Assembly: GCA_907163375.1 (NCBI GenBank)
Contig: CAJQUW010006825.1
Location: 35,931-99,930, forward strand
Length of the DNA stretch: 64,000 nucleotides
Direction of reading: 5' to 3'
DNA from: Prostheceraeus crozeri
Taxonomy: Eukaryota; Platyhelminthes; Polycladida; Euryleptidae
Shown here: one piece after another, positions 12,632 through 62,801 of the stretch
Position numbering within the stretch: position 1 is the stretch's first letter
Layout of the letters: each line of letters begins with the position of its first letter
The notes under the pieces: generated by a model
What the model saw: the letters and a program-made list of their open reading frames with translations, nothing else
Told to the model about the DNA's origin: nothing
Database searches by the model: none
Program-made: the position numbers and the translations under genes

Positions 12632-13315
12632 AGTAGTAATAAAACGGCGAACACTCGACGGGCGCGCCCCTCTCCCCCTCCCCCCTCTGGAACGACAGAG
12701 GTCTGTCGTGGTGTGCCGGCCAGGTTGGTCGACGTGAACAAAATGTTCGCTGACGTCCCCCCCCCTCTGTGGAACGACAGAGTGTCGTGGTGGACTTGGG
12801 CGACCGCCAGGTTTTGACTTGAGGCTATAGTGTGTTATGATTTTCGTGAAATCTGATGAATGTTGGGTTGAAAATGGGATATGTTTCGAGTGGAAGCAGT
12901 GCTCGGATGGGAAAACGGAGGCCAGATTCGGATTCAGCGTGAAATTCTGCATCTGTATGGTGAATTTGAAAGCAATCGGAGAGAAAAATTTTCGCTGACG
13001 TCCCCCCCTCGGCACCGACCTTCCAACTTTGCTTCTAGTGGACGGATTTTGTCGTGCAATAGCTCGTTTGAAAGCTAAGAGTGAGACAAATTCACTGAAA
13101 GAATCGGCTTGTTCATATCTGCCTTCGTTTAGATGTGAGACGCCATTTAAGATTTTGGGAGATTGGTGAAAAACGACAGAGTTAGAATTTTGGACGTTTT
13201 GGGCTGTAGCGTCAAAACGAAGCATCGGAGAGCAAAACGGATTTCAGATTTGGAATCAGCATGAAATTCTCTATCAACATGGTGAGTTTCAAGTCAGTCG
13301 GAGAGAAAAAATTTT
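12632..13315 (+). repeat. Left terminal inverted repeat of Polinton 1
   Basis: It matches the reverse complement of 42958-44096 once the MITE at 43632-44077 is set aside. It has a GC-rich outer part (CTCGACGGGCGCGCCCC), poly-C tracts, and repeated modules beginning GCTGACGTCCCCCC at about 12749 and 12995 (a third lies just inside at about 13317). TIR ends are where the terminal protein primes replication and where the integrase acts. Long reading frames across it are incidental. Confidence 0.9.
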
Positions 13316-13539
13316 TGCTGACGTCCCCCCCTCGGGAGAGCTAGCTTCGATCTTGGCTTCTAGTGGACGGATTTTGTCGTGCAATAGCTCGTTTGAAAGC
13401 TAAGAGTGAGACAAATTCACTGAAAGAAACGGCTTGTTCCTATCTGTCTTCGTTAAGATGTGAGACGCCATTTAAGATTTTGGGAGATTGGCGAAAAATT
13501 TTGGCGGATTGGTAAACGGAGGCCAGATTTGGAATCAGC

Positions 13540-17145: not shown

Positions 17146-17361
17146 ATGAAGCAGATGTGTTGCTTACCATGTAATGAACTGCCGGAGGTGAGTGTCGTTG
17201 TCACTTGCACTTGCTGCGCCAGCTCTCACAATGAACCTCCTAAGCAATGTGAACATGATCGCAAAACCGCTAAAGCTAAATGCTGCAGTTGTTGTAAATG
17301 TAGAAAGGCAAGAAAGCAAAAAGATGAGAAGGAGGAAAAAGAGTCAGTCGTCATCGACTGA
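17146..17361 (+). CDS. Cys-rich small ORF overlapping the integrase
   Basis: It starts one base after the preceding stop (TAATATG) and encodes 71 residues with about 13 cysteines in pairs (CC, C-x-CC, CC-x2-C-x-C...), then a Lys/Glu-rich tail. It overlaps the integrase N-terminus in another frame. Close coupling to the upstream gene and Cys pairing favour a real zinc-binding or secreted-like peptide, but overlap with the integrase frame could also produce it by chance. I do not recognise it. Confidence 0.35.
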   Translation: MKQMCCLPCNELPEVSVVVTCTCCASSHNEPPKQCEHDRKTAKAKCCSCCKCRKARKQKDEKEEKESVVID

Positions 17362-18148
17362 GCGTTTGAAGTCAATCTATTATGATGTAAAACATCCGGC
17401 AGGATTTGCATCGATCAAGAAATTATCAAAAGCGAGTGGTCTTCCACAATCACAAGTGAAACGATGGTTAAGGGGTCAGGCTACCTATACACTCCACAAA
17501 CAAGCGAAAAAGAAGTACCGCACCCGCCATTATATTGTTCATGACATCGATGAACAGTGGCAAGCAGATTTGTGCGATATCGCCTCCATTTCAAAACATA
17601 ACTCGGGCAATAATTTTATTTTAACCGTCATTGATATTTTCTCACGTTATGCGTGGGCTCAACCTTTAAAAACTAAAGAAGGGAAAGGAGTAGCAAAAGC
17701 ATTCCAAACAATTTTTCGAGAAGGTCGCATTCCAAAAAGAATTCAGAGTGATCAAGGAAAAGAGTTTGAAAATCAGCATGTGAGAAGATTATTTGAGAGG
17801 CATGACATTGAGTTGTTTAGTGTAAAGAGTGCTTATAAAGCTGCACTCGTTGAACCTTTTAATCGCACATTAAAAAATCGCTTGTGGCGACATTTTACTG
17901 CCAACTTGACACAAAATTGGACAAAGGTTCTACAAGATACACTCCATGCCTACAATCACTCTATCCATCGTTCTATTGGACTCAGACCAGTAGATGTAAA
18001 TGCTGACAATGTAGATAAAGTGCGCGAATCATTCCAACGTAAACGCACTCATGTGAAAAGTGATGTGAAAATTGGTGATAAAGTTCGTATCTCAAAAGTG
18101 AAAAGTGTTTTTGCTAAAGGGTACCTTCCGAATTGGACAGAGGAGGTA
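17192..18148 (+). pseudogene. Polinton integrase, copy 1, cut by Tc1
   Basis: The protein has an N-terminal region with 'KHPAGFASIKKLSKASGLP' (HTH-like zinc-replacing domain common in Polinton integrases). The catalytic core has Asp in 'WQADLCD', Asp in 'IQSDQGKEF' and Glu in 'AALVEPFNRTL' (33 residues after the second Asp). The usual Arg after this Glu is Pro. The start is uncertain; ATG near 17324 is plausible because the first ~45 residues overlap the Cys-rich ORF. At 18147-18148 (TA) a Tc1 element enters and removes the C-terminal chromodomain. The integrase inserts the linear element with 6-bp duplication. Confidence 0.85.
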
Positions 18149-19990
18149 CAGTTATGGCCAAAAGTCACCGGACACTGACATTTTTATGGATATTAGTTGA
18201 AATATTCGGCGCATCGCTTCGATACTCTAGAATAATATGTTTGTATCACTGCGTCATCTACCAACAGTAGCAAAATTTAAATCAAATTTCATTAACCCAA
18301 CCTTTTTGAGCAAATTTACGTTTTGGCCATAAGTCACCGGACAACCAAAATGTGAACATTCATTATTTTAACTGGTCCATATTTTCTGATGTAGGAACTC
18401 AATTGCTCCTTTGTTTGCTGTTTTCTATTCTTCAAGCACATCATTTTTAATAACCGAAAAAGAAAAAATTCAAATTTCAAATTTGGAAGGGAACGGCGGC
18501 TTGGCCAAAAGTCACCGGACACTTTCTTTATCAGCTTAGTGAAAAACATGTTCTTTAGACCATTTCTGTGATAGGTTATTGTGTTTAATCTAATGGAATC
18601 TTTTCACATGCTAAATAATATCTATGAAAAACATCGTTGTTATGTTAGATTTTTATAAAGTGATAATATTAAAATATGACTTTAAATTAACTAGACCCGA
18701 ACTTATTCAAATGAAATTGATTGGGAAATAAATTTATTTTAAAGTTAATCAAATCTAAGTAGACTGTTATTTGACTGTTTTGTTTAGACTGTTTTGTTTT
18801 GTCTTTGAGAAATCCCCATCTACACCCATTTACTTTGATCTACACAAATCAAAATATCGTTTTATGGAAAAACATTTCTATTAGGTTTCTACATCAGGAT
18901 TCGAAAATAAACAATCCATCACGAATTTCAGTGCCTGGTAGGAAATCCCTTCGCCTGAATCACTGATCTCAGTCGTCGTTGCATGCTGTCAACCAGTTGT
19001 GTGCAAGATGCGGGGGTGATGACATGATGCCAAGCTTGAATGATGGCAGAAATGATTTCTGATTTGGATTTTGGGGCCCTCTCGTAGATTACACGTCCAA
19101 CAACAGCCCAAAGATTTTCAATGGGATTGACATCTGGACTTTGACCAGGCCAATCTTGGATGTGCTCCACCTCGTTCCTTGCGAGCCATTCTTTAATAGT
19201 TTTCGCCCGATGACATGGGGCATTGTCATCTTGAAAAATTGCTCCTCCTTCGGGATAATGATCTTGTCGAGTACGAAGCAGCTCATTCTGGAGAACGTCA
19301 AGATAAACTTTCTGGTTTACCCTCTCACCATTTTCAAATATTCTCAGCCTGCCAACGCCTTTGTTGGAGAAGCATCCCCACACCATCACACTGAGAGGAT
19401 GCTTAGTCGTCGCCATTGTGCACTTTGGTAGGTAGCGTTCTCCGATTCTTCGTCTGACTCTGAGCGACCCTCGATTACCGTGTAGATCAAAGAACGATTC
19501 ATCCGAGAATATCACTCTTTGCCAGTACTCTGGGCCTTTCTCAGCATACTTTTGGGCAAACAAAGCTCTTCTACGCCTTTGAAAGGCATTCACGAAAGGT
19601 TTCTTTGCTGGTCGTCTACAGCTGAAGCCTGCGTGTTGTAGTCGCCTTCCGATGGTTCTCTCATTCATTGAAGCTCCGAAGTCTCCGAGGGTCGCCTTGA
19701 TTTGCTTCGAAGACAAAAATCGATTTTGTTCACAGCGCCGAATAATCACTCTGTCCAGTCTTTCAGATGAACGTCGAGGGCGACCCGTTCGTTTCTTTGT
19801 AGGAGAACCATGACCTGAGGGATTAGCAAGCCAACGACTTCTTATGTCGGAAACTGTTGATTTTGGGACACCCACTTTGACAGAGATTTTGCGAATGGCG
19901 TAGCCTTCTTTCAAGAGAGTCACAATCTCAGATCTCTTCTTCGGTGAGACTTGCTTTCGCATCGGCATCACTTTCGTTAGACGATCACTT
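18149..19990 (-). mobile_element. Tc1-like transposon, right end missing
   Basis: The left end begins CAGTTATGGCCAAAAGTC directly after a TA in the integrase gene. GGCCA[A/T]AAGTCACCGGACA is repeated three times (about 18154, 18324 and 18502), resembling an IR/DR arrangement. The transposase is complete. No matching inverted end exists between 19972 and 21020, so the right terminus has been lost, apparently at the junction with a hAT fragment. Confidence 0.75.
18928..19971 (-). CDS. Tc1-family transposase, intact frame (347 aa)
   Basis: The frame is uninterrupted and of normal Tc1 length. Residues 1-110 hold a bipartite paired-like DNA-binding region ('VSPKKRSEIVTLLKEGYAIRK' and 'KVGVPKSTVSDIRSRW') with a GRPRR-type AT-hook between the two parts. 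Catalytic residues are Asp in 'IFSDESFF', Asp in 'FQDDNAPCH' and Glu in 'SPDVNPIENLW', about 35 residues apart. The intact frame implies a recent insertion into the Polinton, although the missing right end makes this copy immobile by itself. Confidence 0.9.
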   Translation of the reverse strand: MMPMRKQVSPKKRSEIVTLLKEGYAIRKISVKVGVPKSTVSDIRSRWLANPSGHGSPTKKRTGRPRRSSERLDRVIIRRCEQNRFLSSKQIKATLGDFGASMNERTIGRRLQHAGFSCRRPAKKPFVNAFQRRRRALFAQKYAEKGPEYWQRVIFSDESFFDLHGNRGSLRVRRRIGERYLPKCTMATTKHPLSVMVWGCFSNKGVGRLRIFENGERVNQKVYLDVLQNELLRTRQDHYPEGGAIFQDDNAPCHRAKTIKEWLARNEVEHIQDWPGQSPDVNPIENLWAVVGRVIYERAPKSKSEIISAIIQAWHHVITPASCTQLVDSMQRRLRSVIQAKGFPTRH

Positions 19991-22354: not shown

Positions 22355-23632
22355 ATGGAGTGTAAGGCTTCCGGGTTTTGTTTGTTTGATCAACAAGCCA
22401 TACAGACAGATATTCTTAGTTCAAGTATTGTAGATTATCATCCTCGAACAGCTGAGAATGCTGGCCCCATTGAATTTGTTATTCCTGGTGGTAGTGATGA
22501 CTACATAGATTTGAGTTATGCGATGCTTGATTTGAGGTTTAGAATTCAGCAAGCAGATGGAACTGCTATTGACAATACACATAAAGTTGGACTGAACAAT
22601 TCACCATTGACTACATTACTTCGCGATGTTTCTCTAACGATTGGAGAGCAGCAGGTGGAAGGTGGTCAAAGCGATTATCCCTATAAATCATATTTCAATC
22701 ATGTATTACAGTTTCATCCAGCAGCACAAAAAAGTCATATGGAAGCCATGGGATGGTACAGAGATGAAGCAGGAAAATTTGATGTTGAAACAAACAGTGG
22801 CTTTGTAAAGCGATCTGCTATGATTAAAGATAGTAGAGTATGTCAGCTATATGGTCCGCTGAATTTAGACTTCTTTAGACAGTCAAAGTTTTTACTCTGT
22901 AATACCAGCATGCGACTCAAGCTGACATTGAATAAGCCTGAATTTGCGCTGAATGCATTTGCTAAAGTTGACAATTTTAGAATTCATGTGGAAGATATTG
23001 CACTTTACATTCGTCGAGTAGTACCGAATCCAAGTGTCATTAGAGGACATGCTGAAGGTCTTAACCGCCAAAATGCCATTTACCCCGTTCAGCATACAAA
23101 GCTTCTCACCTTTACAATTCCGAAAGATCAAAAGAGTTTCATGAAAGATGGCCTCTTTCCATCGGAAGCACCGAAGCTCCTCATGGTGGCAATGGTTGAA
23201 AATGATGGATTTAATGGTAATATAAAGAAGAATCCTTTCAATTTTAAACACAATCAGTTAAGTGAAATTGCTTTACGTGTAAATGGTGTGAGTCATCCTG
23301 GTCCACCCTACAAACTAGATTTTGCTTCGGATCAATTTATGCGCAGTTATGTTGATTTTATGGATGTCTTTGGCTTTTACAATACGGATGACACCAACGG
23401 ACTCACTATGAAAGAGTTTAAGAGTAGATATACTATTTATGCATTTGATTTGACTGCTGACATCGATATTAGTGCACCCCATCGTCAAGCGAACGTGCCT
23501 GATAATATTCGTTTGGATTTGACGTTCAAAAGAACACTACCTGAGACGATCAATTTATTAATTTATGCAGTCTTCGATTCAAATATTGTAATTATTAAGT
23601 ATCGTGACGTGATTCTTCAGTATAATCGTTAA
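22355..23632 (+). CDS. Major capsid protein (F54H12.2-like family)
   Basis: The 425-residue intact frame has the ordered landmarks of the F54H12.2-like family found in invertebrate Polintons: 'DYHPRT', 'GPIEFVIPGGSDDYIDLS', 'ADGTAI', 'SDYPYKSY' and later 'LYIRRVVPNPSVIRGHA'. By family knowledge I assign it as the double jelly-roll hexon-type capsid protein. Its location between the core protein and the protease agrees. It overlaps the protease start by one base (TAATG). No break is visible, unlike the polymerase. Confidence 0.75.
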   Translation: MECKASGFCLFDQQAIQTDILSSSIVDYHPRTAENAGPIEFVIPGGSDDYIDLSYAMLDLRFRIQQADGTAIDNTHKVGLNNSPLTTLLRDVSLTIGEQQVEGGQSDYPYKSYFNHVLQFHPAAQKSHMEAMGWYRDEAGKFDVETNSGFVKRSAMIKDSRVCQLYGPLNLDFFRQSKFLLCNTSMRLKLTLNKPEFALNAFAKVDNFRIHVEDIALYIRRVVPNPSVIRGHAEGLNRQNAIYPVQHTKLLTFTIPKDQKSFMKDGLFPSEAPKLLMVAMVENDGFNGNIKKNPFNFKHNQLSEIALRVNGVSHPGPPYKLDFASDQFMRSYVDFMDVFGFYNTDDTNGLTMKEFKSRYTIYAFDLTADIDISAPHRQANVPDNIRLDLTFKRTLPETINLLIYAVFDSNIVIIKYRDVILQYNR

Positions 23633-24093
23633 TGAGTTGGTTGACTGCTGACGATATTAAAACTAAAGTACAGCGTAATGCAGACGAAGCGACGTTGAAA
23701 GCTTTCGATAATGTCTATTCGCTCAATACCTTACCACCTGCAGTAAATCACTATCCCATCTTTATTGTGCTAAACACTCATTCGCAGAATTTAGGCGGTG
23801 AGCATTGGAAAGCGATCTTTATTGGAGAAGACCGACGTGGTGAACTATTTGACTCTCTTGCTCAACCTCCAAATATACCAACACAGCAGTGGTTGAGAAA
23901 ACATACGCGTCAATATCAGCGAAATGAACGCATACTACAACATCCACTTTCATCAACGTGTGGTGCTTTTGTACTGTACTTCATCTTAAAACGTTTACAT
24001 GTATCTCGATTTGTATCTGTTATTCAAAACTTTTCATGTAATCCATCCTCTAATGAAAAAATGATTTGTAAGTTCTATCATGATTTGAAATAA
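23632..24093 (+). CDS. Adenain-type maturation cysteine protease
   Basis: The 153-residue protein carries the ordered catalytic set of the adenovirus/Ulp1-like C5 clan: His in 'EHWKAIF', acidic residue in 'GELFDSL', and nucleophile Cys in 'SSTCGAFVLYF'. Polinton proteases of this type cleave capsid and core precursors in the maturing particle. The gene starts within the capsid stop codon (TAATG) and an AATAAA (24089-24094) overlaps its end. The frame is intact. Confidence 0.85.
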   Translation: MSWLTADDIKTKVQRNADEATLKAFDNVYSLNTLPPAVNHYPIFIVLNTHSQNLGGEHWKAIFIGEDRRGELFDSLAQPPNIPTQQWLRKHTRQYQRNERILQHPLSSTCGAFVLYFILKRLHVSRFVSVIQNFSCNPSSNEKMICKFYHDLK

Positions 24094-24124
24094 AAACATC
24101 ATGTTGGAAAAATTGTTTTTTATT
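24089..24124. terminator. Convergent polyadenylation signals
   Basis: AATAAA at 24089-24094 serves the plus-strand capsid-protease unit. TTTATT at 24119-24124 is AATAAA on the minus strand for the TBP-like gene. The two transcription units meet here with about 30 bp between signals. Confidence 0.6.
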
Positions 24125-24158
24125 TTACAATCCGCTGGGTACGTACATACTCGATGAG

Positions 24159-24986
24159 CTAGTCTAGGATCACATTTGCTTGTACATGAGATTTTAGTCC
24201 AGTAATGATCACTTTACTATTATGAAAGATTGCCACATGCACAGGTAACCAACAACTAATGAGAGCTGCAGGAAAAAGTTCGGGTTCATAACACAAATTC
24301 TAACTGCTGGTACGAATCTTCAAAAATGATAGACTGTCACTCAATTGAGTAGAGATCACCATATTGTCCACAGTCAGATTCGACATCACACACCTCTCCC
24401 TCTTCCATATCCGACGTAGTAGTCTCTCTAGCTCTAAGCGCATTGACTGCGCCGATGAATGAGAAAGGGCGCCGAGAATCTGTACAGTCCCATTTGGGAA
24501 GAGTTGAAGATTCCGTGAATTGTTCATCTTCACCACTAACATTTGAGGTCGGCCCGGGTAATACTTGCTGTTTGGAAGGTGTTGGTGTAATGTTGTGAGA
24601 TCGATTTTGGTGTAGAGTCTGAAGCGACGGAGAATGTTGACGATGGTGTAGCGATGGCGCTTCATGTTGAAAGAATGAGTAAATTGAGCGATGTACCTTC
24701 CTTTTATACTTTCCCAACTACCTTGATGAAATGTGAAGTTAGTATGAAGTTGGGAATGATAGAGTTGAATTCGCCGATTGTTGACGCGCAACCAGATGCG
24801 ATTTCCAATACGTGAATGTCTTTTCATATAGAAGTATTTCAAGTCCTTCATGATATGATGTAGAGATTGAAAATGACGATAAGATAAAGCAAACTCTCTT
24901 CTCACATTTCCAGTTGAATCTTTGAAATAGACGTTTCGATCATGATCCGTTTCAATACGTTGTAGGGAATCTAATTTCCAACTCAT
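24159..24986 (-). pseudogene. TBP-like protein with N-terminal PC4-like region
   Basis: The minus-strand gene starts at 24986. Residues about 1-105 resemble the neighbouring PC4-like protein. From about residue 110 a TATA-binding-protein core follows. Repeat 1 reads 'TIVNILRRF', 'KIDLTTLHQHL', 'YYPGRPQMLVVKM' and 'LFPNGTVQILGA', in the same order as canonical TBP. Repeat 2 begins 'NLTVDNMVIS' and, beyond an in-frame TAG (24302-24300), continues with 'YEPELFP' and 'KVIITGLKSH' to a stop at 24161-24159. TBP bends TATA DNA to start transcription, so the element may have encoded its own promoter recogniser. The intercalating Phe positions are only partly kept. One nonsense codon splits repeat 2. 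The TBP call rests on motif order; the PC4 call is weaker. Confidence 0.65.
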
Positions 24987-25008
24987 GGTGCGTGGTAGTC
25001 ATGTCTGA

Positions 25009-25377
25009 TTAAGATTTGCATAGTAGGGCGATGAACTCACGACGAATAAATGTCATGATGGAGCGATGTATGTATCTTCTATACTTCTCCCAATTGTATT
25101 TGCGAAATGAGAAACAGTTTGCGGAATGAGAATGGCAGATTTGAATTTCATTTCTGTGATGTTGAAGCCAAACTTGATCACCCAAGGAGATGAATCTTAA
25201 TGTTTCAAAATATTCCAAATCCCTCATGATATCATTGAGGTTGACAAATTGTCGCCATGTTAATGTAATACCTCTTGATGTATGACCATGAGAATTTTTG
25301 AAATGTACGTTTCCATCACGATCAACTCTGATATATTGTAGAGAGTCCAAAATCCAAGTCTTCATGATGTTATGCAA
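25009..25377 (-). CDS. PC4-like transcription coactivator/ssDNA-binding protein
   Basis: The 122-residue intact frame is related to the first ~105 residues of the TBP-like gene downstream: both have 'LDSLQ.I..D.DGNV.FK', a 'R...L..R.F..L..IM.DL.YF' helix, and a second half with 'LGDQVWL' and 'W..Y...I'. Each half resembles the PC4 C-terminal fold (strand '.LG..v.v', then an 'RGITLTWRQFVNLNDIM' helix comparable to the PC4 'KGISL...QW..L' block). PC4 binds melted promoter DNA and TFIID. This is inference by pattern; it could be another beta-alpha DNA-binding domain. It lies 22 bp upstream of the TBP-like gene and diverges from a virion gene with only 23 bp between starts. Confidence 0.5.
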   Translation of the reverse strand: MHNIMKTWILDSLQYIRVDRDGNVHFKNSHGHTSRGITLTWRQFVNLNDIMRDLEYFETLRFISLGDQVWLQHHRNEIQICHSHSANCFSFRKYNWEKYRRYIHRSIMTFIRREFIALLCKS

Positions 25378-26093
25378 AGCCGCAGATCAGCAATATACAA
25401 ATGTCGTTTTATCATATTTTGCTTAGCAATGCGGCCGCAAATAGATTTGCTAGTAATCGAGCCGCACTCTTTTCTACTCCCATTGATCATACACAACAGC
25501 TAAATGGAAAGTGGGGAGTGGGTGTCACTCAACTTGTTTATAGCAACTTTGTCTATACTTTTGATCATGAGGTGATGACTATTAATATGAGACGTACAGC
25601 TGCTTACCAATGTGAAAAGGGCTGCCGAGTATACATTCCACAGTGGCCAAAGAAAGATCTCTTATCATGTAAAAAGTTTATATATGATTTCCTGAATAAA
25701 GCGTGTAAACATATTGTCCAATTTACTCCGCACAATGATGATCATAATTATGTACATCATGTAGTTGAGTGAAATGAGAGAATTATTTTCTCATGAACGA
25801 CTCCAGAGGCGACGGATCGAATGAACGATGCGTTATCAAGTTTTTAGAAGATCAAAACGTCGCAAAAATCAAAAACTGAAATAATTATTCAGTCTCTACC
25901 GGTTTCAATTGGCAACAAGATGACAGAGATTGACCAATCTTCATCAGGAGAAATATAAAAAGAGGACATTTAGTCCCTACAATTTTAAACGACAAACAGT
26001 TTTAAAAATTCCTTATATGCATGTATAGACTACCTAGATATTCTAAGATATATTCCAAGATATTCTATATCATAAAAATAGAAATCACAAAAG

Positions 26094-28697
26094 TCATAGG
26101 GAAGTAGGAGATTTAGGTTCATAGATCGCTGACCTCTGTAGCACATGCTGCATATTAAGGCCATGAGGCCAGTCAGTCATTAGTTGGCTAATGAATTTTA
26201 GTTCCTCCACCTTTCGTTGTTGATCATTTCCTTTTATTTCTTTCAGTATTGTCACCCTTAAATCTTCTTCCAGGTGTTGATGTTTTATACAATGATGAGA
26301 AACCACCCTTTCTTCATCTCCATGGCGGACGTCAAATCGATGTTCTGTCATTCTTTCTCTCAAACTTCTTTGGGTTTCTCCTACATATAAAAAATTACAA
26401 TTGCGAAAACTTAGACCATAAATGATGTTTGATGATGTGCATGTTGTTTTAGCAGCTTTGATGTTATAAGAAAGTTCAGTGATAGGCGATAACACTTCAG
26501 TTTCAGTTGAGAGCATGGCGCAGGTTTTGCAGCGCGAGTTATTGCAGGATGAAACAATGCCAATGTTGTTAAATGACGCATTATCTGTTTTATCATATAA
26601 ACGAGAAGAGACCAAATGAGAATTTAGTTTTCTGGGAGGTTTCCACCATAATTTAGCAGTAATGCCAGTTCCTACAAGAAAGTGTTCATGTCTTTTCGCA
26701 ATAAACTTGATATCAGCATACGTTGAAGGATGATACGGAGCAATCCAGGTAGGTGTCGGTGAAATATTTTCTTTGCTATTTTTCTCCAATAACAATTTTC
26801 GGTCTTTAGATAGAGCTTTCCGAATTTGATTTTGTACTCGACCTCTTGGATAACCTCTTCGCACCAAAGCATCTTCGAGATCATATAAATGATGTCTCGC
26901 CTGAAGATCATCTGAACAAATTCGCCTTATTCTTAGAGCTTGCGAATAAGCAATGGGCAAACGATGCTCGATAGGATGACATGAAGTAAAATGCAGATAT
27001 TGACGAGTATCGGTTGGCTTGGTGTATAAATCTGTGGATAGATTGGCACCGTGCTTTGAAATTCTGGTATCAAGAAAGTTTACTTCGGAATCACTCTTTT
27101 CAAAGACGAATTTAATAGAAGGATGGAAATTATTAGCATAATCTTCAAACTGCTGCAAGGTTTCCCATCCATGCGTCCAGATCATAAAAATGTCATCGAT
27201 ATATCTCCACCACACTATTGGATTAAGGATAGCATTTGATAGAAGACGTTTTTCGAACCAATCCATAAAAATAATCGCGTAGTTTGGAGCCATTTTTGTA
27301 CCCATAGCCGTGCCTTGTAACTGAGTGAAAAAGTTGTTGTAGAATTGGAAAGTATTCGTTGTTAGAACAATGTGTGCCAATTTTGATATAGTTTTTGAAC
27401 TTGGGACTTTAACAGTTCTGGTTTCAAGAGCTTCGTACAATGCTTTCAGTCCATCTTGGTGAGGAATCTTAGTATACAAAGAAGACACATCTGCAACAAC
27501 CAAAATAAAGTCTTCATTCATTTTACTAGAAAGTGCATTAAGTTTGGTCAAGAAGTCCGTTGTGTCCTTGAGATAAGATTTGACCTGCGTGGCTAGGGGC
27601 TTGATAATAGAGTCTACATAGGAGCTCAACTTTTCTGTCACTCCATTACATGAGGATACTATCGGTCGACCCGGACAAGGAGTTATGTTCTTATGAATTT
27701 TTGGAAGTAAATAGAATAGAGAGGTTCTTGGTGAAAGTGGCGGCTTTATTTTTTCAGCCGTTTCTAAAGAGAGTTTTCCATTTTGAACAAGTCTATCTAA
27801 TTCGTCGGTAACTTTTTCACGGAGAATTGAAGTTTGATCAACCTCTTCCTTGCGATAAGTTGTGGTATCATTGAGTTGACGAAAGGCTTCTGTACAATAA
27901 TCTGATTTATTCCAAACAACGACTACTCGGCCCTTATCTGCAGGCTTTATTACAATATCATTATTCTTTTTCAAATTCTTTAAAATGTCAAATTCTTCTT
28001 TGCTGAAATTACTTTGTGATCTTCTTACTTTGATCTGCTGAACATCTTTCTTTATGGCAGTTACATATGCTTTCGTAGCATGAGATTGGTCATGTTGTAA
28101 CAATTGTGCACAGTATTTCGATGCGCTTGTAAGTAAATCGAAGCGATCAAATTCTTTTGGCTTAATTGCAAACCCTAGTCCTTTATTCAACACTAATTTT
28201 TCTTCTCGTGATAGTTCGTAAGAAGAGGACAAAGAAATAACTGTGCGATTTAATTCTTCATCAGTAACAGTGAGATTAGGTCTTTGGGGTGCTTTATTTC
28301 TAGAAAAGCGTCGATTACGTGGACGAGTTAATCGGAAATTTATGGAATCAAATTCATTCATAAAAATATCGTACATTTCGCGATATTGCAAGTTGGATAA
28401 TCGAACTAGTTTATTCACTTTTAAAGAAATGTGGCGAATGGATGGTTGAGTCGAATTCTTTATAGTTCTTTCACACTTAGGAATTGAAAAACACAGCTCT
28501 TCATAATGTAATCTTAGATCAATAACCATTTCCATCTCCAATTTATGAGTTTTTGCTTTCCATTTTTTATTCAGTCTATCTGATTCAGGCGCTTCGGCGG
28601 TCTTTGAACGCAATCTTAATCCTCTTGGTATGATATTAAGTCGCTCACAAGATCGTAGAAAAGCGATATGGAGGATGAAAGTGATAAATGAATTCAT
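26094..28697 (-). CDS. Penelope-like reverse transcriptase + GIY-YIG endonuclease, copy A
   Basis: The 867-residue intact protein has an N-terminal region, then RT motifs: 'KPADKGRVVVVW', 'FYLLPKIHK', 'PGRPIVSSCNG', 'LVVADVSSLYTKIP' (motif A Asp), 'QGTAMGTKMAPNYA' (motif B) and 'WWRYIDDIFMIW' (motif C, catalytic DD). The C-terminus is a GIY-YIG nuclease ('IIYGLSFRNCNFLYVGET', then 'RSLRERMTEHR') with a preceding 'CNNSRCKTC' Cys cluster. This order defines endonuclease-bearing Penelope elements, which use the nuclease to start target-primed reverse transcription. The intact frame means it could be active. Confidence 0.95.
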   Translation of the reverse strand: MNSFITFILHIAFLRSCERLNIIPRGLRLRSKTAEAPESDRLNKKWKAKTHKLEMEMVIDLRLHYEELCFSIPKCERTIKNSTQPSIRHISLKVNKLVRLSNLQYREMYDIFMNEFDSINFRLTRPRNRRFSRNKAPQRPNLTVTDEELNRTVISLSSSYELSREEKLVLNKGLGFAIKPKEFDRFDLLTSASKYCAQLLQHDQSHATKAYVTAIKKDVQQIKVRRSQSNFSKEEFDILKNLKKNNDIVIKPADKGRVVVVWNKSDYCTEAFRQLNDTTTYRKEEVDQTSILREKVTDELDRLVQNGKLSLETAEKIKPPLSPRTSLFYLLPKIHKNITPCPGRPIVSSCNGVTEKLSSYVDSIIKPLATQVKSYLKDTTDFLTKLNALSSKMNEDFILVVADVSSLYTKIPHQDGLKALYEALETRTVKVPSSKTISKLAHIVLTTNTFQFYNNFFTQLQGTAMGTKMAPNYAIIFMDWFEKRLLSNAILNPIVWWRYIDDIFMIWTHGWETLQQFEDYANNFHPSIKFVFEKSDSEVNFLDTRISKHGANLSTDLYTKPTDTRQYLHFTSCHPIEHRLPIAYSQALRIRRICSDDLQARHHLYDLEDALVRRGYPRGRVQNQIRKALSKDRKLLLEKNSKENISPTPTWIAPYHPSTYADIKFIAKRHEHFLVGTGITAKLWWKPPRKLNSHLVSSRLYDKTDNASFNNIGIVSSCNNSRCKTCAMLSTETEVLSPITELSYNIKAAKTTCTSSNIIYGLSFRNCNFLYVGETQRSLRERMTEHRFDVRHGDEERVVSHHCIKHQHLEEDLRVTILKEIKGNDQQRKVEELKFISQLMTDWPHGLNMQHVLQRSAIYEPKSPTSL

Positions 28698-28746
28698 TTA
28701 AGATTTGATTTTTGAGTCGGATCTGTTGAAGATGCAAAATACAGTT

Positions 28747-30209
28747 TAGTGAAATGAGAGAATTATTTTCTCATGAACGACTCCAGAGGCGACGGATCGA
28801 ATGAACGATGCGTTATCAAGTTTTTAGAAGATCAAAACGTCGCAAAAATCAAAAACTGAAATAATTATTCAGTCTCTACCGGTTTCAATTGGCAACAAGA
28901 TGACAGAGATTGACCAATCTTCATCAGGAGAAATATAAAAAGAGGACATTTAGTCCCTACAATTTTAAACGACAAACAGTTTTAAAAATTCCTTATATGC
29001 ATGTATAGACTACCTAGATATTCTAAGATATATTCCAAGATATTCTATATCATAAAAATAGAAATCACAAAAGTCATAGGGAAGTAGGAGATTTAGGTTC
29101 ATAGATCGCTGACCTCTGTAGCACATGCTGCATATTAAGGCCATGAGGCCAGTCAGTCATTAGTTGGCTAATGAATTTTAGTTCCTCCACCTTTCGTTGT
29201 TGATCATTTCCTTTTATTTCTTTCAGTATTGTCACCCTTAAATCTTCTTCCAGGTGTTGATGTTTTATTACAATGATGAGAAACCACCCTTTCTTCATCT
29301 CCATGGCGGACGTCAAATCGATGTTCTGTCATTCTTTCTCTCAAACTTCTTTGGGTTTCTCCTACATATAAAAAATTACAATTGCGAAAACTTAGACCAT
29401 AAATGATGTTTGATGATGTGCATGTTGTTTTAGCAGCTTTGATGTTATAAGAAAGTTCAGTGATAGGCGATAACACTTCAGTTTCAGTTGAGAGCATGGC
29501 GCAGGTTTTGCAGCGCGAGTTATTGCAGGATGAAACAATGCCAATGTTGTTAAATGACGCATTATCTGTTTTATCATATAAACGAGAAGAGACCAAATGA
29601 GAATTTAGTTTTCTGGGAGGTTTCCACCATAATTTAGCAGTAATGCCAGTTCCTACAAGAAAGTGTTCATGTCTTTTCGCAATAAACTTGATATCAGCAT
29701 ACGTTGAAGGATGATACGGAGCAATCCAGGTAGGTGTCGGTGAAATATTTTCTTTGCTATTTTTCTCCAATAACAATTTTCGGTCTTTAGATAGAGCTTT
29801 CCGAATTTGATTTTGTACTCGACCTCTTGGATAACCTCTTCGCACCAAAGCATCTTCGAGATCATATAAATGATGTCTCGCCTGAAGATCATCTGAACAA
29901 ATTCGCCTTATTCTTAGAGCTTGCGAATAAGCAATGGGCAAACGATGCTCGATAGGATGACATGAAGTAAAATGCAGATATTGACGAGTATCGGTTGGCT
30001 TGGTGTATAAATCTGTGGATAGATTGGCACCGTGCTTTGAAATTCTGGTATCAAGAAAGTTTACTTCGGAATCACTCTTTTCAAAGACGAATTTAATAGA
30101 AGGATGGAAATTATTAGCATAATCTTCAAACTGCTGCAAGGTTTCCCATCCATGCGTCCAGATCATAAAAATGTCATCGATATATCTCCACCACACTATT
30201 GGATTAAGG
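28747..30209 (-). pseudogene. Penelope-like copy B, 5'-truncated with frameshift
   Basis: This copy keeps the RT from 'WWRYIDD' (about 30195) to the GIY-YIG domain and the terminal sequence. One extra base in 'GTTTTATTACAATG' at about 29266-29270 (compare 26286-26294 of copy A) shifts the frame near the end. It starts abruptly at 30209 inside the RT, where copy C begins in the opposite direction, as after template switching. Confidence 0.9.
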
Positions 30210-30385
30210 ACTGAATAATTATTTCAGTTTTTGATTTTTGCGACGTTTTGATCTTCTAAAAACTTGATAACGCATCGTTCATTCGATCCGTCGCCTCTGG
30301 AGTCGTTCATGAGAAAATAATTCTCTCATTTCACTAAACTGTATTTTGCATCTTCAACAGATCCGACTCAAAAATCAAATCTTAA

Positions 30386-32989
30386 ATGAATTCATTTATC
30401 ACTTTCATCCTCCATATCGCTTTTCTACGATCTTGTGAGCGACTTAATATCATACCAAGAGGATTAAGATTGCGTTCAAAGACCGCCGAAGCGCCTGAAT
30501 CAGATAGACTGAATAAAAAATGGAAAGCAAAAACTCATAAATTGGAGATGGAAATGGTTATTGATCTAAGATTACATTATGAAGAGCTGTGTTTTTCAAT
30601 TCCTAAGTGTGAAAGAACTATAAAGAATTCGACTCAACCATCCATTCGCCACATTTCTTTAAAAGTGAATAAACTAGTTCGATTATCCAACTTGCAATAT
30701 CGCGAAATGTACGATATTTTTATGAATGAATTTGATTCCATAAATTTCCGATTAACTCGTCCACGTAATCGACGCTTTTCTAGAAATAAAGCACCCCAAA
30801 GACCTAATCTCACTGTTACTGATGAAGAATTAAATCGCACAGTTATTTCTTTGTCCTCTTCTTACGAACTATCACGAGAAGAAAAATTAGTGTTGAATAA
30901 AGGACTAGGGTTTGCAATTAAGCCAAAAGAATTTGATCGCTTCGATTTACTTACAAGCGCATCGAAATACTGTGCACAATTGTTACAACATGACCAATCT
31001 CATGCTACGAAAGCATATGTAACTGCCATAAAGAAAGATGTTCAGCAGATCAAAGTAAGAAGATCACAAAGTAATTTCAGCAAAGAAGAATTTGACATTT
31101 TAAAGAATTTGAAAAAGAATAATGATATTGTAATAAAGCCTGCAGATAAGGGCCGAGTAGTCGTTGTTTGGAATAAATCAGATTATTGTACAGAAGCCTT
31201 TCGTCAACTCAATGATACCACAACTTATCGCAAGGAAGAGGTTGATCAAACTTCAATTCTCCGTGAAAAAGTTACCGACGAATTAGATAGACTTGTTCAA
31301 AATGGAAAACTCTCTTTAGAAACGGCTGAAAAAATAAAGCCGCCACTTTCACCAAGAACCTCTCTATTCTATTTACTTCCAAAAATTCATAAGAACATAA
31401 CTCCTTGTCCGGGTCGACCGATAGTATCCTCATGTAATGGAGTGACAGAAAAGTTGAGCTCCTATGTAGACTCTATTATCAAGCCCCTAGCCACGCAGGT
31501 CAAATCTTATCTCAAGGACACAACGGACTTCTTGACCAAACTTAATGCACTTTCTAGTAAAATGAATGAAGACTTTATTTTGGTTGTTGCAGATGTGTCT
31601 TCTTTGTATACTAAGATTCCTCACCAAGATGGACTGAAAGCATTGTACGAAGCTCTTGAAACCAGAACTGTTAAAGTCCCAAGTTCAAAAACTATATCAA
31701 AATTGGCACACATTGTTCTAACAACGAATACTTTCCAATTCTACAACAACTTTTTCACTCAGTTACAAGGCACGGCTATGGGTACAAAAATGGCTCCAAA
31801 CTACGCGATTATTTTTATGGATTGGTTCGAAAAACGTCTTCTATCAAATGCTATCCTTAATCCAATAGTGTGGTGGAGATATATCGATGACATTTTTATG
31901 ATCTGGACGCATGGATGGGAAACCTTGCAGCAGTTTGAAGATTATGCTAATAATTTCCATCCTTCTATTAAATTCGTCTTTGAAAAGAGTGATTCCGAAG
32001 TAAACTTTCTTGATACCAGAATTTCAAAGCACGGTGCCAATCTATCCACAGATTTATACACCAAGCCAACCGATACTCGTCAATATCTGCATTTTACTTC
32101 ATGTCATCCTATCGAGCATCGTTTGCCCATTGCTTATTCGCAAGCTCTAAGAATAAGGCGAATTTGTTCAGATGATCTTCAGGCGAGACATCATTTATAT
32201 GATCTCGAAGATGCTTTGGTGCGAAGAGGTTATCCAAGAGGTCGAGTACAAAATCAAATTCGGAAAGCTCTATCTAAAGACCGAAAATTGTTATTGGAGA
32301 AAAATAGCAAAGAAAATATTTCACCGACACCTACCTGGATTGCTCCGTATCATCCTTCAACGTATGCTGATATCAAGTTTATTGCGAAAAGACATGAACA
32401 CTTTCTTGTAGGAACTGGCATTACTGCTAAATTATGGTGGAAACCTCCCAGAAAACTAAATTCTCATTTGGTCTCTTCTCGTTTATATGATAAAACAGAT
32501 AATGCGTCATTTAACAACATTGGCATTGTTTCATCCTGCAATAACTCGCGCTGCAAAACCTGCGCCATGCTCTCAACTGAAACTGAAGTGTTATCGCCTA
32601 TCACTGAACTTTCTTATAACATCAAAGCTGCTAAAACAACATGCACATCATCAAACATCATTTATGGTCTAAGTTTTCGCAATTGTAATTTTTTATATGT
32701 AGGAGAAACCCAAAGAAGTTTGAGAGAAAGAATGACAGAACATCGATTTGACGTCCGCCATGGAGATGAAGAAAGGGTGGTTTCTCATCATTGTATAAAA
32801 CATCAACACCTGGAAGAAGATTTAAGGGTGACAATACTGAAAGAAATAAAAGGAAATGATCAACAACGAAAGGTGGAGGAACTAAAATTCATTAGCCAAC
32901 TAATGACTGACTGGCCTCATGGCCTTAATATGCAGCATGTGCTACAGAGGTCAGCGATCTATGAACCTAAATCTCCTACTTCCCTATGA
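30386..32989 (+). CDS. Penelope-like reverse transcriptase + GIY-YIG endonuclease, copy C
   Basis: The protein is identical to copy A over 867 residues, on the opposite strand. The upstream terminal region (30210-30385) begins with CTGAATAATTATTTC and contains CATTTCACTAAACTG close to the ORF. The 3' end stops at 33241 within the pseudo-LTR, compared with copy A. Together A and C form a large inverted repeat with copy B as spacer. Confidence 0.95.
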   Translation: MNSFITFILHIAFLRSCERLNIIPRGLRLRSKTAEAPESDRLNKKWKAKTHKLEMEMVIDLRLHYEELCFSIPKCERTIKNSTQPSIRHISLKVNKLVRLSNLQYREMYDIFMNEFDSINFRLTRPRNRRFSRNKAPQRPNLTVTDEELNRTVISLSSSYELSREEKLVLNKGLGFAIKPKEFDRFDLLTSASKYCAQLLQHDQSHATKAYVTAIKKDVQQIKVRRSQSNFSKEEFDILKNLKKNNDIVIKPADKGRVVVVWNKSDYCTEAFRQLNDTTTYRKEEVDQTSILREKVTDELDRLVQNGKLSLETAEKIKPPLSPRTSLFYLLPKIHKNITPCPGRPIVSSCNGVTEKLSSYVDSIIKPLATQVKSYLKDTTDFLTKLNALSSKMNEDFILVVADVSSLYTKIPHQDGLKALYEALETRTVKVPSSKTISKLAHIVLTTNTFQFYNNFFTQLQGTAMGTKMAPNYAIIFMDWFEKRLLSNAILNPIVWWRYIDDIFMIWTHGWETLQQFEDYANNFHPSIKFVFEKSDSEVNFLDTRISKHGANLSTDLYTKPTDTRQYLHFTSCHPIEHRLPIAYSQALRIRRICSDDLQARHHLYDLEDALVRRGYPRGRVQNQIRKALSKDRKLLLEKNSKENISPTPTWIAPYHPSTYADIKFIAKRHEHFLVGTGITAKLWWKPPRKLNSHLVSSRLYDKTDNASFNNIGIVSSCNNSRCKTCAMLSTETEVLSPITELSYNIKAAKTTCTSSNIIYGLSFRNCNFLYVGETQRSLRERMTEHRFDVRHGDEERVVSHHCIKHQHLEEDLRVTILKEIKGNDQQRKVEELKFISQLMTDWPHGLNMQHVLQRSAIYEPKSPTSL

Positions 32990-33135
32990 CTTTTGTGATT
33001 TCTATTTTTATGATATAGAATATCTTGGAATATATCTTAGAATATCTAGGTAGTCTATACATGCATATAAGGAATTTTTAAAACTGTTTGTCGTTTAAAA
33101 TTGTAGGGACTAAATGTCCTCTTTTTATATTTCTC

Positions 33136-33200
33136 CTGATGAAGATTGGTCAATCTCTGTCATCTTGTTGCCAATTGAAACCGGTAGAGACTGAATAATT
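33136..33200 (+). ncRNA. Candidate hammerhead-ribozyme motif in the Penelope pseudo-LTR
   Basis: CTGATGA (33136-33142) is followed by a possible stem (ATTGG...CCAAT), then GAAA (33177-33180) and the self-complementary ACCGGT. CTGANGA...GAAA is the hammerhead core and such ribozymes are known in Penelope-like terminal repeats. I cannot close stems I and III with certainty. Copies also lie on the minus strand near 25920-25950 and 28895-28930. Confidence 0.4.
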
Positions 33201-34325
33201 ATTTCAGTTTTTGATTTTTGCGACGTTTTGATCTTCTAAAAACATCAGGTAGTTGAGAAAGATTGGATTGTTGGTTTAAGTCCAAGTTTAAGAAATGATT
33301 TAGGTTACCTCGCTAGCGCCTTAACAAGCTATGATAATTTTAACGTTAATTACCACATAAGTGGTTATAAACAGTTAATATATCGAGAGGAAGCTTATTA
33401 TGTAGATCTTATTCCAAAAAATGAGAAGACGTTGGTGAAGAAGATTGTGATTAAGCCAAGAAAGACAAACATGACTCCTGAAACATTATTGAAGAAATTT
33501 AATTATCTCCTTCGAGTTGATGGTAAACAAGTGGCAACATTAACTTATATCAAATCATCTAATCATATTGCAATAAGTAAATTAAATGATGATGATCTAG
33601 TATTAGATTGTTCAAAAGATTTTCATCAGTTCTTACGACATCATTCTGCAGCTGTTCATGGAAAATTTGATATGCAACATTTACCATGTGAAAGGTCAAA
33701 TCAATTTGATACAGAATGGACCGTATCTTTATACAGAAAGTGTGTAGAGCCTTTAGGTGGTATCTTACATGAAACAATAGTGTTGATGCCTCGCATTATT
33801 ACTTCGGTTAAATTGGTTGTAGATTATTTAAATGAAGTGATTAATGAGCAACATATTTCATTTTCTGAAAAAGAAGGTACTTTGTCTCTCACTATAAGTG
33901 GAAAAGGTATTGAACTAATTATGGATAAAACTCTAATGGACATTTTGGGTTTTGATCAAAATATCTTTAAAATTGGTACTGTAACCAAAGCTAGCGCAGA
34001 CATGTCGCTATCGCGTCGTATTAACTATTTTCAGATATATTCCAATATTGGTGAAGATGTACGTGTGGGAGATGTTGAAGCTCCATTGCTAGCAATGATA
34101 CCATACCAGCCAAAAAGCTGCAGTATTTTATCTGAGCATACTTTCAAGAAATTGCATTATACAAAGCTGAAATCAAACTACATCCCACAAATTGATATTG
34201 CAATTTATGACGATGCTGGTGCGTTGATTCCTTTTCATAATGATGCTGTGACAAGTATCACACTCCATTTCCGAATGAAGAGTTAATGCAAAAGTATGCT
34301 AATATATTTTTCCAATGTGAATAAT

Positions 34326-36023: not shown

Positions 36024-39000
36024 TTATGCTAAGACGTCTCCTGAATGTGGTAGTGTGAGTTTAATTCTTTTGGGTGGTGGTATGTTTGTGTCAGGATGTC
36101 CATGTGGAAGAGATATGTTGTGTTCTAACCAGCACCTCTTATCCTCCCATGCTGAAAGCGCCCGTTTCCTAAAAGTATGAGTTATGATCTCATGCGACTT
36201 AGATTTTAAGATTGTCATTTTGACAAACGTTATATTTTTATTTCTATAGGCTTCCCTGAAATTTTTATGTTTCATGTTAGAGACCAATGATCTTGATATG
36301 CCTTTAGCGCACTTAATACTATCGTCTCTATCCTTTAATTTCATACTGTACATTTTTGGGCGGAGGAGAATCATTTCATCTATTTCCTTCCCTGCTGTCT
36401 CATCCTTAAAGCAGCCAAGTTTTGCCTTATTTTTGATGGAGTAGAGTGGGTGATCAGTAGGATAATTTGATTTATCAAAATATCTTTCTAAAGATTTTCC
36501 TACTTCATTGAAATTTAAATGTTTTTGAGTGGTAATACCTAAGAAGAAACTATCTGTATCACCACCCAACAAACGAACCTCTTTTACGAGAGGACATGGT
36601 TTTAGTATTTTATAAAAGAGTTGGTACATTTCAAGCTTAGAGTAATCTAGTACAGCTTGGCCAACATAGATGGGCTTGCACAACTCAACTTCAGATTTTA
36701 TCATTTTAACACCTACAAGGTCCTCATCGATAATGTCTCTATCGATGAATAGAGGTGATGAGACCAATTTCTTAAATTTTGTAACATCATTGACTAGTTT
36801 ATAGTTAAAACGTTTTCTAACATCCTCCATCGTCTTACCAAATAGACTATTATTCTTATACCTATAAAAATCCTTTTCAAAATTATTTTGGGCTAGTGCA
36901 CGTTTCTGGCTGTTGCTATCAATATATTGTTTGAGGAAGGCTTTCTGTCTAAATTTGATGATGCGGCGAACTCTTTTTAAAATCATACCCATTTCGAAAT
37001 AAAATTTTAAGATGCTAAGTGAACTAGATAGTTTTCCTTATCATATTGGGTGAGTAAAAGTTTGCGGCAAGGCTTATGGTCGGGTTGACCGCATGATTCT
37101 AAATCTTTATGAAATTGTTTCATAAAGTCGGAAAACATATCTTTGGTCACTTCACCTAATTCGGGTGCGAGTGGAAAATCTACGGTTTTATGTTTAATAT
37201 TATTTGGATAGATTAGATCTATCTCAAAATAATATCACCAATCACCTTCATCTGGAATTGCTAGTATGTTAGAAGGGTTGGAGAGATGCTGAATTTCACT
37301 ATCATCTAACCAGATAAACTCAGAGTGAGGGAGTGGTTTGGATAATGAACTACCATATAAATTATTTTGATCATAATACTTAAGATGAGTCTGATCATTG
37401 CCTACTAATTTTGATTTTAACCTATGTTTATTTACAAATGTGAGACCACCGCGAATTCCTCGCTCAAATAAATTATACATCTCCGGATCTTGTAAGAGAT
37501 GAATGGTCTCACCAGTCATTTTAAAAGCAGACTTAAATGACATGGCTGGCAGACTGACAAAGTGGACGGGATCTAACTTATCTTCTTCTAATGCCACTCG
37601 TCGAAACTCCTGAAATACATCAGCCAGCAAAAATACATCTAACTTAAGATAGGCAATCATATATTCGCCAAATGTATGGCAGTCAAATTTTATCCATGCA
37701 TCTTGTGCATGATCATAATCTTCGGTCTTACATTCTGCGCCGGTCAAATCATTTTTAAATTTATCTATGGGCGGAAGAGAAGTCTCGCCGAGTTTACTAA
37801 TCGCATCAAAATATGCATATGGAAAGACTCCTTTCCGTGAGATTTTGTGTTGGTGGAAGAGACTTTAGATTTTGTACGAGAGAGGCCAGTGATGCAGTCA
37901 TAAATTGGTAGGAATCTAAAAATTTTATATCAAAATAGACCGTCTTATTTCCTTTAGTTTAGTTAGTTAGTTAGGCACTTTTGCTGTCATGGCCATAAAC
38001 TTCTCTCTCGTTTGTGCTATTACATCAAGCTTCCACTCTTTCATTTGACCTAAACCTCCTTTTATTATCATATGGCTGTCGTAGCCCTTGAAATTATGGA
38101 AAATGACGTGTAATGTACGCCGTTTCATCCTAAGTGAAAAATTGCATTTTGAACATAGTGCGTTTCTAAATTTACCAGTGATGTGATTATGGTCGCGCAC
38201 TTTCTTAATCTTATCATCATCAAATGTTTTCCTATATTTGAGGCAAACGTTGCAACTATCAAATTTTGCTTGATCATCTGCTGTCATATGCAATGGTCTG
38301 CGATAGAGTTCACCATCATACTTTCGTTGAAATTTTACAGCCTGTTCGAGGAATTGTAGGAATTGGTAAGTACAATCCTCACCTTGCCAGACGTGCATTT
38401 TATTTTTTCTATTTTGGAAATGGTCATGCCATACTTCATAGCAGGAAATAGCTGCTGGCTTGTGGATGATATCATCGATATAGCATTCGATGTCAGCATA
38501 GATGACACGAAGAGGACTTAGTTCATCGCCATTCTCTCTATATGAAAACTCCTTATCTTTGGGCATGCGCTCCATTTGTAGTTTACCTCGCTTACACCAT
38601 TCGTAATGAGTTTCAAATTTGTTTTTACTCCTTAAGTTCCGAATGTATCTGTCACGGTAATAAATCTCTGATGAGCTAGAATTTCTTAAGTGGTGGTATA
38701 AGCGAGAAATTTTGGGAATACCGCAGTAGTGCCATTCCTCACTATCATCCTGTCTTACTAATAAAAGGTTGACAACGTGGTCATAACAACTCGAACGCGA
38801 GTTGTAGCGGACACCCTTCAATCCCTTTTCCCAAACATGGAGAACTATTTTGATGTTGTTCAATTTTTCAAATTTTTCTATATCTTTAATTTTCATATCG
38901 TCACTATTGCAGTCATCAAACTTTAATTCATTCTCCCACTGTTGATACTTACTCTTACGGTATCGGCTATACTGTACATCATTATAGTGGAGAATGGAGA

Positions 39001-42957: not shown

Positions 42958-44096
42958 TGAAAAATTTTTCTCGCCGATTGACTTGAAACTCGCCATGTTG
43001 ATAGAGAATTTCATGCTGATTCCAAATCTGAAATTCGTTTTCCAATCCGATGCTTCGTTTTGGCGCTACAGCCCAAAACGTCCCAAATTCTAACTCTGTC
43101 GTTTTTCGCCAATGTCCCAAAATCTTAAATGGCGTCTCACATCTAAACGAAGACAGATATGAACAAGCCGATTCTTTCACTGAATTTTTCTCACTCTTAG
43201 CTTTCAAACGAGCTATTGCATGACAAAATCCGTCCACTAGAAGCAAAGTTGGAAGGTCGGTGCCGGGGGGGGGACGTCAGCGAAAATTTTTTCTCTCCGA
43301 TTGCTTTCAAATTCACCATACAGATGCAGAATTTCACGCTGAATCCGAATCTGGCCTCCGTTTTCCCATCCGAGCACTGCTTCCACTCGAAACATATCCC
43401 ATTTTCAACCCAACATTCATCAGATTTCACGAAAATCATAACACATTATAGCCTCAAGTCAAAACCTGGCGGTCGCCCAAGTCCACCACGACACTCTGTC
43501 GTTCCACAGAGGGGGGGACGTCAGCGAACATTTTGTTCACGTGGACCAACCTGGCCGGCACACCACGACAGACCTCTGTCGTTCCAGAGGGGGGAGGGGG
43601 AGGGGGAGAGGGGCGCGCCGGTCGAGTGTTCCCCACTACAAAAAGATACGTCAGTCCGACGTCGAAAACGAGCTCGTTCCGAGGAACAGAATGTCCGCAT
43701 GGCCGATGGTCGATACGACGTCGGAAACCGAAGCCTCATTATAAAAAAGACACGCTAGGCCTCCTACCTGCTATTTTACAAGTAGGATGTCTATTGAATT
43801 ACATGATAACGTCAATTCATCAGGAATTAAGTGTCATATATTTTCCTTTCCCTTTCTGAAGCTTGCTTGAGTAATCAATGTCATCACAATGATATCCGCA
43901 CGTCTTCATGTCTTCAATGTCTTGCTACAATTAACTCAATCAAAAAAGCCATTTTTATCATAATTTCTGTATAAATTCAAAGAAATGAGGTCAGAATTAG
44001 CATGTTAAGGGTGAAAAAAATTTCCCGACCTTTTTCCGACTACCATACCTCGTTCCGACGAATCTTTTTGTAGTGGGTCGCCGTTTTATTACTACT
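42958..44096 (-). repeat. Right terminal inverted repeat of Polinton 1, with a MITE inserted
   Basis: It is the inverted copy of 12632-13315, including the GGCGCGCC site, poly-G tracts, CGTCAGC modules and ACTACT end at 44096, followed by the GATTCA target duplication. The MITE at 43632-44077 separates the last ~19 bp from the rest. Confidence 0.9.
43632..44077. mobile_element. 446-bp non-autonomous DNA transposon (MITE) in the right TIR
   Basis: Ends are perfect inverted repeats CCCACTACAAAAAGAT / ATCTTTTTGTAGTGGG. Flanking TC at 43630-43631 and 44078-44079 is a 2-bp duplication, confirmed by the uninterrupted left TIR. CACTA-like ends suggest a CMC/EnSpm-type relative, but the 2-bp duplication leaves the superfamily open. 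No transposase. Confidence 0.8.

Positions 44097-62759: not shown

Positions 62760-62801
<42 letters not shown>

Follow-up and report, generated by a model that had tools for sequence, protein, structure and literature searches.

Virus-encoded TATA-binding proteins and Polintons

Polintons (Mavericks) are taken to be integrated viruses that rely on the RNA polymerase II (Pol II) of their hosts, and how they time the expression of their genes is, to our knowledge, unclear. Many giant viruses and mirusviruses carry polymerase subunits of their own, and the hallmarks of the TATA-binding protein (TBP)-like proteins of herpesviruses (vTBPs) are TATT specificity and five partner proteins. According to excerpts of two studies, herpesvirus vTBPs work with host Pol II (PMC12529657, PMC4893493), and KSHV ORF24 is described in the first of these excerpts as depending on four phenylalanines and as being without the TFIIB glutamates E184 and E188 of yeast TBP (PMC12529657). 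Excerpts of genome surveys give TBP in 59% of mirusvirus genomes versus 0% of Nucleocytoviricota, as judged by the study's own clusters (PMC10132985), and TATA-binding proteins in elements presumed to stem from mirusviruses (PMC10675990). The accessible part of PMC12220804 contains no TBP, and in the accessible main text of PMC11071308, on eukaryotic DJR viruses, the terms TATA, TBP, transcription and PC4 never appear. No report of a TBP in a Polinton, Maverick or adintovirus was found in full-text searches of the openly accessible literature.

The Polinton in the window

By its repeats and gene content, the element surrounding the gene described here is a Polinton, with an approximate outer extent of 12668–43606 (no strand assigned) in the window, i.e. 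the whole 64,000-nt stretch of Prostheceraeus crozeri DNA that was analysed. Its long terminal inverted repeats lie at 12668–13498 and 42960–43606 (arms I6, I8, I10 and I25, 90–99% identity), with likeness extending slightly beyond the mapped arms, and Pfam searches identified both a retroviral-type integrase (17231–18178; PF00665, E 5.3e-11) and PolB (37235–37864; DNA_pol_B_2, PF03175, E 1.2e-9). Weaker matches, below the curated cut-offs, mark a 425-aa candidate major capsid protein (22355–23632, plus strand; PF21738, DJR-like, E 0.0039) and a candidate adenain-like protease (23632–24093, plus strand; PF02902, E 0.0011; PF00770, E 0.044), which is convergent with the TBP gene. The open frame of WEVG1 (25401–25772, plus strand), divergent from the gene denoted SHORT below, had no Pfam match at E ≤ 0.1, and no packaging ATPase was matched among the 18 window proteins, a subset of the ORFs, given to Pfam. 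The element shares its terminal repeats, integrase, PolB and weak capsid and protease matches with described Polintons/Mavericks, and differs from them in adding a TBP and two PUR-fold genes.

The gene order capsid–protease–TBP/LONG–SHORT is kept in 20 of 20 fetched copies (5.4–9.9 kb) and WEVG1 is present in 19, L014 being the exception; all 20 copies, like the 40 larger regions that were fetched, came from the match list of the fused frame discussed below.

Other sequences were noted in and around the element. Between WEVG1 and WEVG2, an 867-aa ORF, present twice in inverted orientation, interrupts the Polinton at 25840–33243 (arms of 3035 nt, 100% complementary); by eye it is reverse-transcriptase-like with a GIY-YIG-like end, and an open 346-aa ORF at 18928–19968 resembles, again by eye, a Tc1/mariner transposase. 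Ten repeats at 51380–54214, spaced by about 296–304 nt, are 81–82% like the terminal-repeat piece at 43116–43273 (from the 25 longest of 40 repeat pairs), as if a satellite had grown out of a Polinton repeat end. An open 341-aa frame at 49884–50909 looks by eye like the integrase core of another element, and the window ends in an extremely G-rich low-complexity stretch (62001–64000; GC 0.72, GC skew 0.97).

A TBP paralogue with a predicted saddle fold

At residues 113–190, the 228-aa ORF at 24300–24986 (minus strand) matches the TBP family PF00352 with an E of 5.4e-11, which passes the curated threshold; in the PDB, it matches archaeal TBPs (E 2.4e-5). The second TBP repeat follows in the same frame, beyond the stop that closes this ORF. 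The TBP frame spans 24120–24665 (minus strand), with its own ATG at 24665, and in the window copy contains two internal stops, at 24300–24302 and 24159–24161. The stretch delimited in the initial annotation starts at 24159; both this coordinate and the end of the 228-aa ORF fall on internal stops of the TBP frame in a decayed copy.

Intact TBP is a bare two-repeat core of 181 aa. It is found in three of four fetched unfused copies (L049, L050 and L051; broken in L052) and in three of three fetched copies of a second subfamily, B, and in one intact copy (P0137) PF00352 is matched in two stretches (E 7.6e-21). The predicted structure of the relative P0003 is a TBP saddle, with a sequence identity of 18–27% to cellular TBPs. 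The PF00352 match and the in-frame second repeat uphold the original reading of a TBP core with two repeats in order. The gene is a real, conserved TBP paralogue, carried by a Polinton with many near-identical copies.

Of 90 candidates in a database search with the window ORF, eight proteins reached E ≤ 10. Four of these are bare TBPs (P0001, P0003, P0005, P0008); the others match by the N-terminal domain alone, P0002, P0004 and P0006 continuing in another frame and P0007 being a fragment. When a profile built from the four TBPs was run against 3810 database candidates, 368 of them matched at E ≤ 1, so the TBP family is more than a chance resemblance. From the 120 of these 368 matches that were listed, sets of 119 and 28 proteins were drawn; PF00352 is matched by all 28 aligned relatives, in two stretches in P0003, and 20 alignment columns are invariant. 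Viral contigs searched with the window ORF, the TBP profile and the capsid candidate, and genome contigs searched with the TBP profile, yielded no confirmed relative, and it is for this reason that we infer, rather than observe, a Polinton origin of the 120 listed relatives. In Foldseek, the TBP matches two viral proteins (E 4.3e-11), one of them named as the TBP of Heterosigma akashiwo virus 01; identity is 7–22% across the 50 Foldseek matches listed, which sets the element protein apart from giant-virus and mirusvirus TBPs. PHROGs gave no match for the TBP.

LONG and SHORT, two genes with a predicted PUR-like fold

The first part of the 228-aa ORF belongs to a different gene, LONG (24337–24986, minus strand; the P0002 form, frame-shifted in the window copy), which consists of a PUR/PC4-fold domain and a tail of about 100 aa that is read over TBP repeat 1 in another frame. 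SHORT (25009–25365, minus strand) encodes a stand-alone 118-aa PUR/PC4-fold protein, which is a paralogue of the first ~110 residues of the ORF (44% identity, E 6e-31, between the relatives P0131 and P0002). With a profile of the N-terminal domain, 2189 candidates gave 16 matches (E ≤ 10), including nine long forms (211–222 aa) whose tails can be aligned, four proteins of 118–119 aa that stand alone and two fragments. A weak match, P0136 (E 0.36), carries part of the LONG tail followed by TBP repeat 2 in one frame and is, by this arrangement, another frame-joined form; P0136 and P0007 were left out of alignment A5.

The initial annotation had recognised a region shared with the neighbouring protein and had called it PC4-like. 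The sharing is real; the PC4 profile (PF02229) matched none of 15 family members and neither of the two window proteins. PUR-alpha and Whirly profiles likewise matched none of the 15. In the predicted model, two beta4-alpha modules are packed as in PUR repeat I–II. Foldseek searches with this model gave nothing under E 0.001, the top matches being unrelated enzymes (E 0.025) and PURA appearing at rank 15 (E 0.41), and matches in PHROGs were weak (E 0.08–0.16). The element proteins therefore differ from PUR-alpha, Whirly and PC4 proteins in sequence, and because no PUR sequence profile matches among the 15 members we keep the label to a PUR-like fold. Folds of the PUR type bind single-stranded DNA.

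Overlap rather than fusion

Copies were searched for in the host genome (G000; 2.05 Gb in 14165 contigs). With the window ORF as query, at least 150 copies scored as matches to the fused frame, 128 of 150 being stop-free in the matched part by our own count. The unfused P0002 also found at least 150 scored copies, all 150 at 99–100% identity and with a stop-free match, and this number of near-identical LONG copies in one genome is a recent burst of a Polinton family. Four unfused copies that were fetched differ by 0.6–1.2% in DNA. In three of the four, LONG is 216 aa long and a 181-aa intact TBP begins in the +1 frame at offset 322, giving an overlap of 329 nt; L052 has this overlap too, with its TBP broken. 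P0126 as query gave at least 150 matches at 53–56% identity. Three of these, with an open frame of 228–229 residues or longer context, were fetched (L053–L055) and represent subfamily B, in which the LONG-only part is 80–83% identical to the first subfamily, A (L053 and L054 versus L050); all three are unfused and have the same overlap, with the TBP ATG at offset 325. Those P0126 matches whose frame is 220 residues long appear to belong to subfamily A.

In an alignment of 44 distinct copies from the fused-frame search, 36 have an open frame of 285–288 aa, and by eye at least eight different small-indel joins are present, one kind being common to about 19. Joined copies differ from each other by 1.9% on average and from unfused copies by 1.4% (five duplicate loci, L001, L002, L003, L004 and L008, were left out of both the alignment and the distances, and L052 out of the joined–unfused mean). 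Being nearer to unfused copies than to one another, the joined copies mostly appear to have decayed independently. A fusion confined to the window copy as its private defect is rejected, as frame-joined copies recur, and so is fusion as the common form, given that a fused query selects joined copies and that all 150 scored unfused copies are at 99–100%. The proposal of a TBP joined to a PC4-like domain thus holds for recurrent joined frames and fails as a description of the usual form: in the undamaged form the TBP gene overlaps the PUR-fold gene and is not fused to it.

Selection on the overlap

When the TBP frame was redrawn with synonymous codons, LONG stayed open in 1 of 20,000 redraws in subfamily A and in 0 of 20,000 in subfamily B; the reverse test is weak, TBP staying open in 2,080 of 20,000. 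For the pairs L050–L053, L050–L054 and L053–L054, dN/dS was 0.19, 0.25 and 0.19 in the LONG-only part and 0.32, 0.26 and 0.10 in the TBP-only part, and in the overlap 0.16, 0.18 and 0.07 when read as TBP and 1.0, 0.8 and 1.0 when read as LONG. The underlying L050–L053 values (dN/dS) are 0.088/0.461 for LONG-only, 0.112/0.345 for TBP-only, 0.041/0.252 for the overlap as TBP and 0.084/0.083 for the overlap as LONG. The low ratios in the TBP and LONG-only parts indicate purifying selection on TBP and on the PUR-fold domain; the LONG tail stays open, with a sequence that is free to vary wherever TBP allows.

A candidate nested promoter

Within the LONG coding sequence lies a TATA box, TATAAAA (24702–24708, minus strand), whose first T precedes the ATG of TBP by 43 nt. 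At a distance of 32 nt from that T, and 11 nt ahead of the ATG, comes an initiator-like TCATTC (24673–24678, minus strand; A at 24676). The TATA site is identical in six of six overlap copies, three from each subfamily, and the initiator-like site reads TCATTC in three and TCATTT in three; these six represent two or three lineages, not six independent ones. The whole window holds four TATAWAAR/TCAKTY pairs on both strands, the nested one included, which makes it unlikely, not impossible, that a given upstream stretch of 100 nt would contain one by chance. At the protein level, 23 of the 119 relatives have enough upstream residues for comparison, and in 10 of these I-K stands exactly where it could encode the TATA box, with three more shifted by one residue (P0009 among them only if a later Met is taken). 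The nested TATA match may reflect LONG's own conserved codons (KYKR).

Clear TATA boxes had been attributed to the genes of the element in general, and this did not hold: of 14 start codons, two of them uncertain, only two have a TATAAA in the preceding 140 nt, and only that of TBP is correctly placed. No common promoter motif was found upstream of 12 element genes, the best 7-mer occurring in 8 of 12 while 30 shuffles reach 7–10.

DNA-binding face and TFIIB surface

Residues were compared in 119 relatives aligned with Encephalitozoon and archaeal TBPs, the mapping being by sequence alignment and the 89-aa fragment P0124 being left out. F77, F152, F168, N122, V124, T176, Q75, Q83 and H164 are invariant (119/119). 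Repeat 2 keeps Asn, Val, both Phe and Thr in all 119, with an invariant His, and an Ala in 113 of 119, where the Encephalitozoon TBP has Val and Leu. In repeat 1, one Phe is kept, Gln occupies two contact positions in all 119, Leu, Met or Phe replaces Thr, and Pro (P61; 115/118) stands where the first intercalating Phe would be. Three of the four intercalating Phe are thus kept throughout, and because the first is replaced by Pro the protein is classed as a TBP-like paralogue, not a canonical TBP; with this residue lost, DNA bending is not assured. In presumed yeast numbering, repeat 1 differs from cellular TBPs (yeast, human and archaeal; PF00352) by F99 to P, L114 to Q, V122 to Q and T124 to L/M/F, and repeat 2 by His and Ala; we take these four yeast residues, with F116, F190, F207 and T215, to be contacts. 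Further differences from cellular TBPs are the 18–27% identity and the overlap with another gene.

In TBP, it is repeat 2 that covers the 5' half of the TATA box, from which a hybrid target is predicted. The second-stirrup glutamates that contact TFIIB are also retained in the alignment (E148 in 115/119, with four Asp; E150 in 118/119, with one Asp); E148 presumably aligns with yeast E186, and E150 aligns with E188. Judged from excerpts of the herpesvirus literature, the element protein resembles the vTBPs (KSHV ORF24, EBV BcRF1, HCMV UL87) in being virus-encoded, TBP-like and more polar on its DNA face, and differs from KSHV ORF24 in keeping the Glu aligned with E188, in having lost one Phe and in being a bare 181-aa core.

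Possible roles of the element-encoded TBP

We favour, at a probability of roughly 0.6, the explanation that a Polinton TBP paralogue, overlapping a PUR-fold gene and expressed from a nested promoter, steers host Pol II; its homology, predicted fold, overlap and conservation in two subfamilies are established, and its function in element transcription is one that we infer from sequence. Host Pol II would transcribe the TBP gene from the nested TATA/initiator promoter, and the protein would bind element promoters through its saddle, the C-terminal repeat still reading a TATA-like half-site and the N-terminal repeat, with two invariant Gln and a Pro for one intercalating Phe, reading something else. 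The kept E-x-E-L-F-P stirrup would recruit host TFIIB and Pol II, so that element genes, probably late ones such as capsid, could be expressed in competition with host TFIID. The PUR-fold proteins, whose genes share this strand block, probably attach to DNA that is single-stranded or melted, either where replication takes place or at promoters. Against this reading count the failure to find a common motif upstream of the 12 genes, the ratio of about 1 for the overlap as LONG, the weak reverse redraw test, the few lineages behind the nested TATA site and its coincidence with KYKR codons of LONG, and the altered residues of repeat 2 together with the lost intercalating Phe. The self-encoded promoter recogniser first suggested for this locus is in part supported. 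More tentative is a minimal Polinton initiation system, in which an asymmetric-saddle TBP on a new, half-TATA hybrid promoter, together with PUR-fold single-strand binders from the overlapping frame, would draw Pol II away from host-type (TATA/Inr) promoters towards those of element type.

The same TFIIB stirrup could serve a decoy, with host transcription reduced or diverted because the element TBP sequesters TFIIB, TFIIA or Pol II or sits on the promoters of the host, and the failure to find a common motif upstream of the 12 genes would fit this; the invariant new polar residues Q75 and Q83 (119/119) suggest a selected DNA target, for which a decoy has no need, and we consider it unlikely. 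Slightly less probable still is a role in replication or packaging, with the TBP and PUR-fold proteins marking or melting element DNA ends or origins and transcription being secondary: the TBP fold occurs in other DNA-handling contexts and the PUR fold seen in the model is of a type that binds single-stranded DNA, yet the kept E-x-E-L-F-P surface would have no obvious use there.

Far less credible is a working 288-aa fusion of TBP and the proposed PC4 domain, even in one copy lineage. The many scored fused-frame matches (at least 150, most of them stop-free), the long open frames in 36 of 44 aligned copies and the one widespread join speak for it, but such copies are selected by the fused query itself, at least eight joins differ by eye, joined copies are less like one another than like unfused ones, and unfused copies are numerous at 99–100% and are the form of all three fetched subfamily B copies. 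Hardly tenable at all is a non-functional remnant of a captured host TBP, as the broken window copy and L052 might suggest: TBP dN/dS below 0.35 between the compared lineages disfavours it, as do the more than 100 divergent relatives and the 20 columns that never vary across the 28 proteins aligned.

It is unusual for DNA to be doubly constrained in the way seen here, where a TBP gene and a PUR-fold gene overlap in the +1 frame and one of them probably has its promoter nested in the coding sequence of the other. The element-encoded TBP would extend virus-encoded TBPs beyond giant viruses, mirusviruses and herpesviruses, and, with its TFIIB surface kept and its DNA face half changed, it provides a testable handle on the timing of Polinton gene expression.
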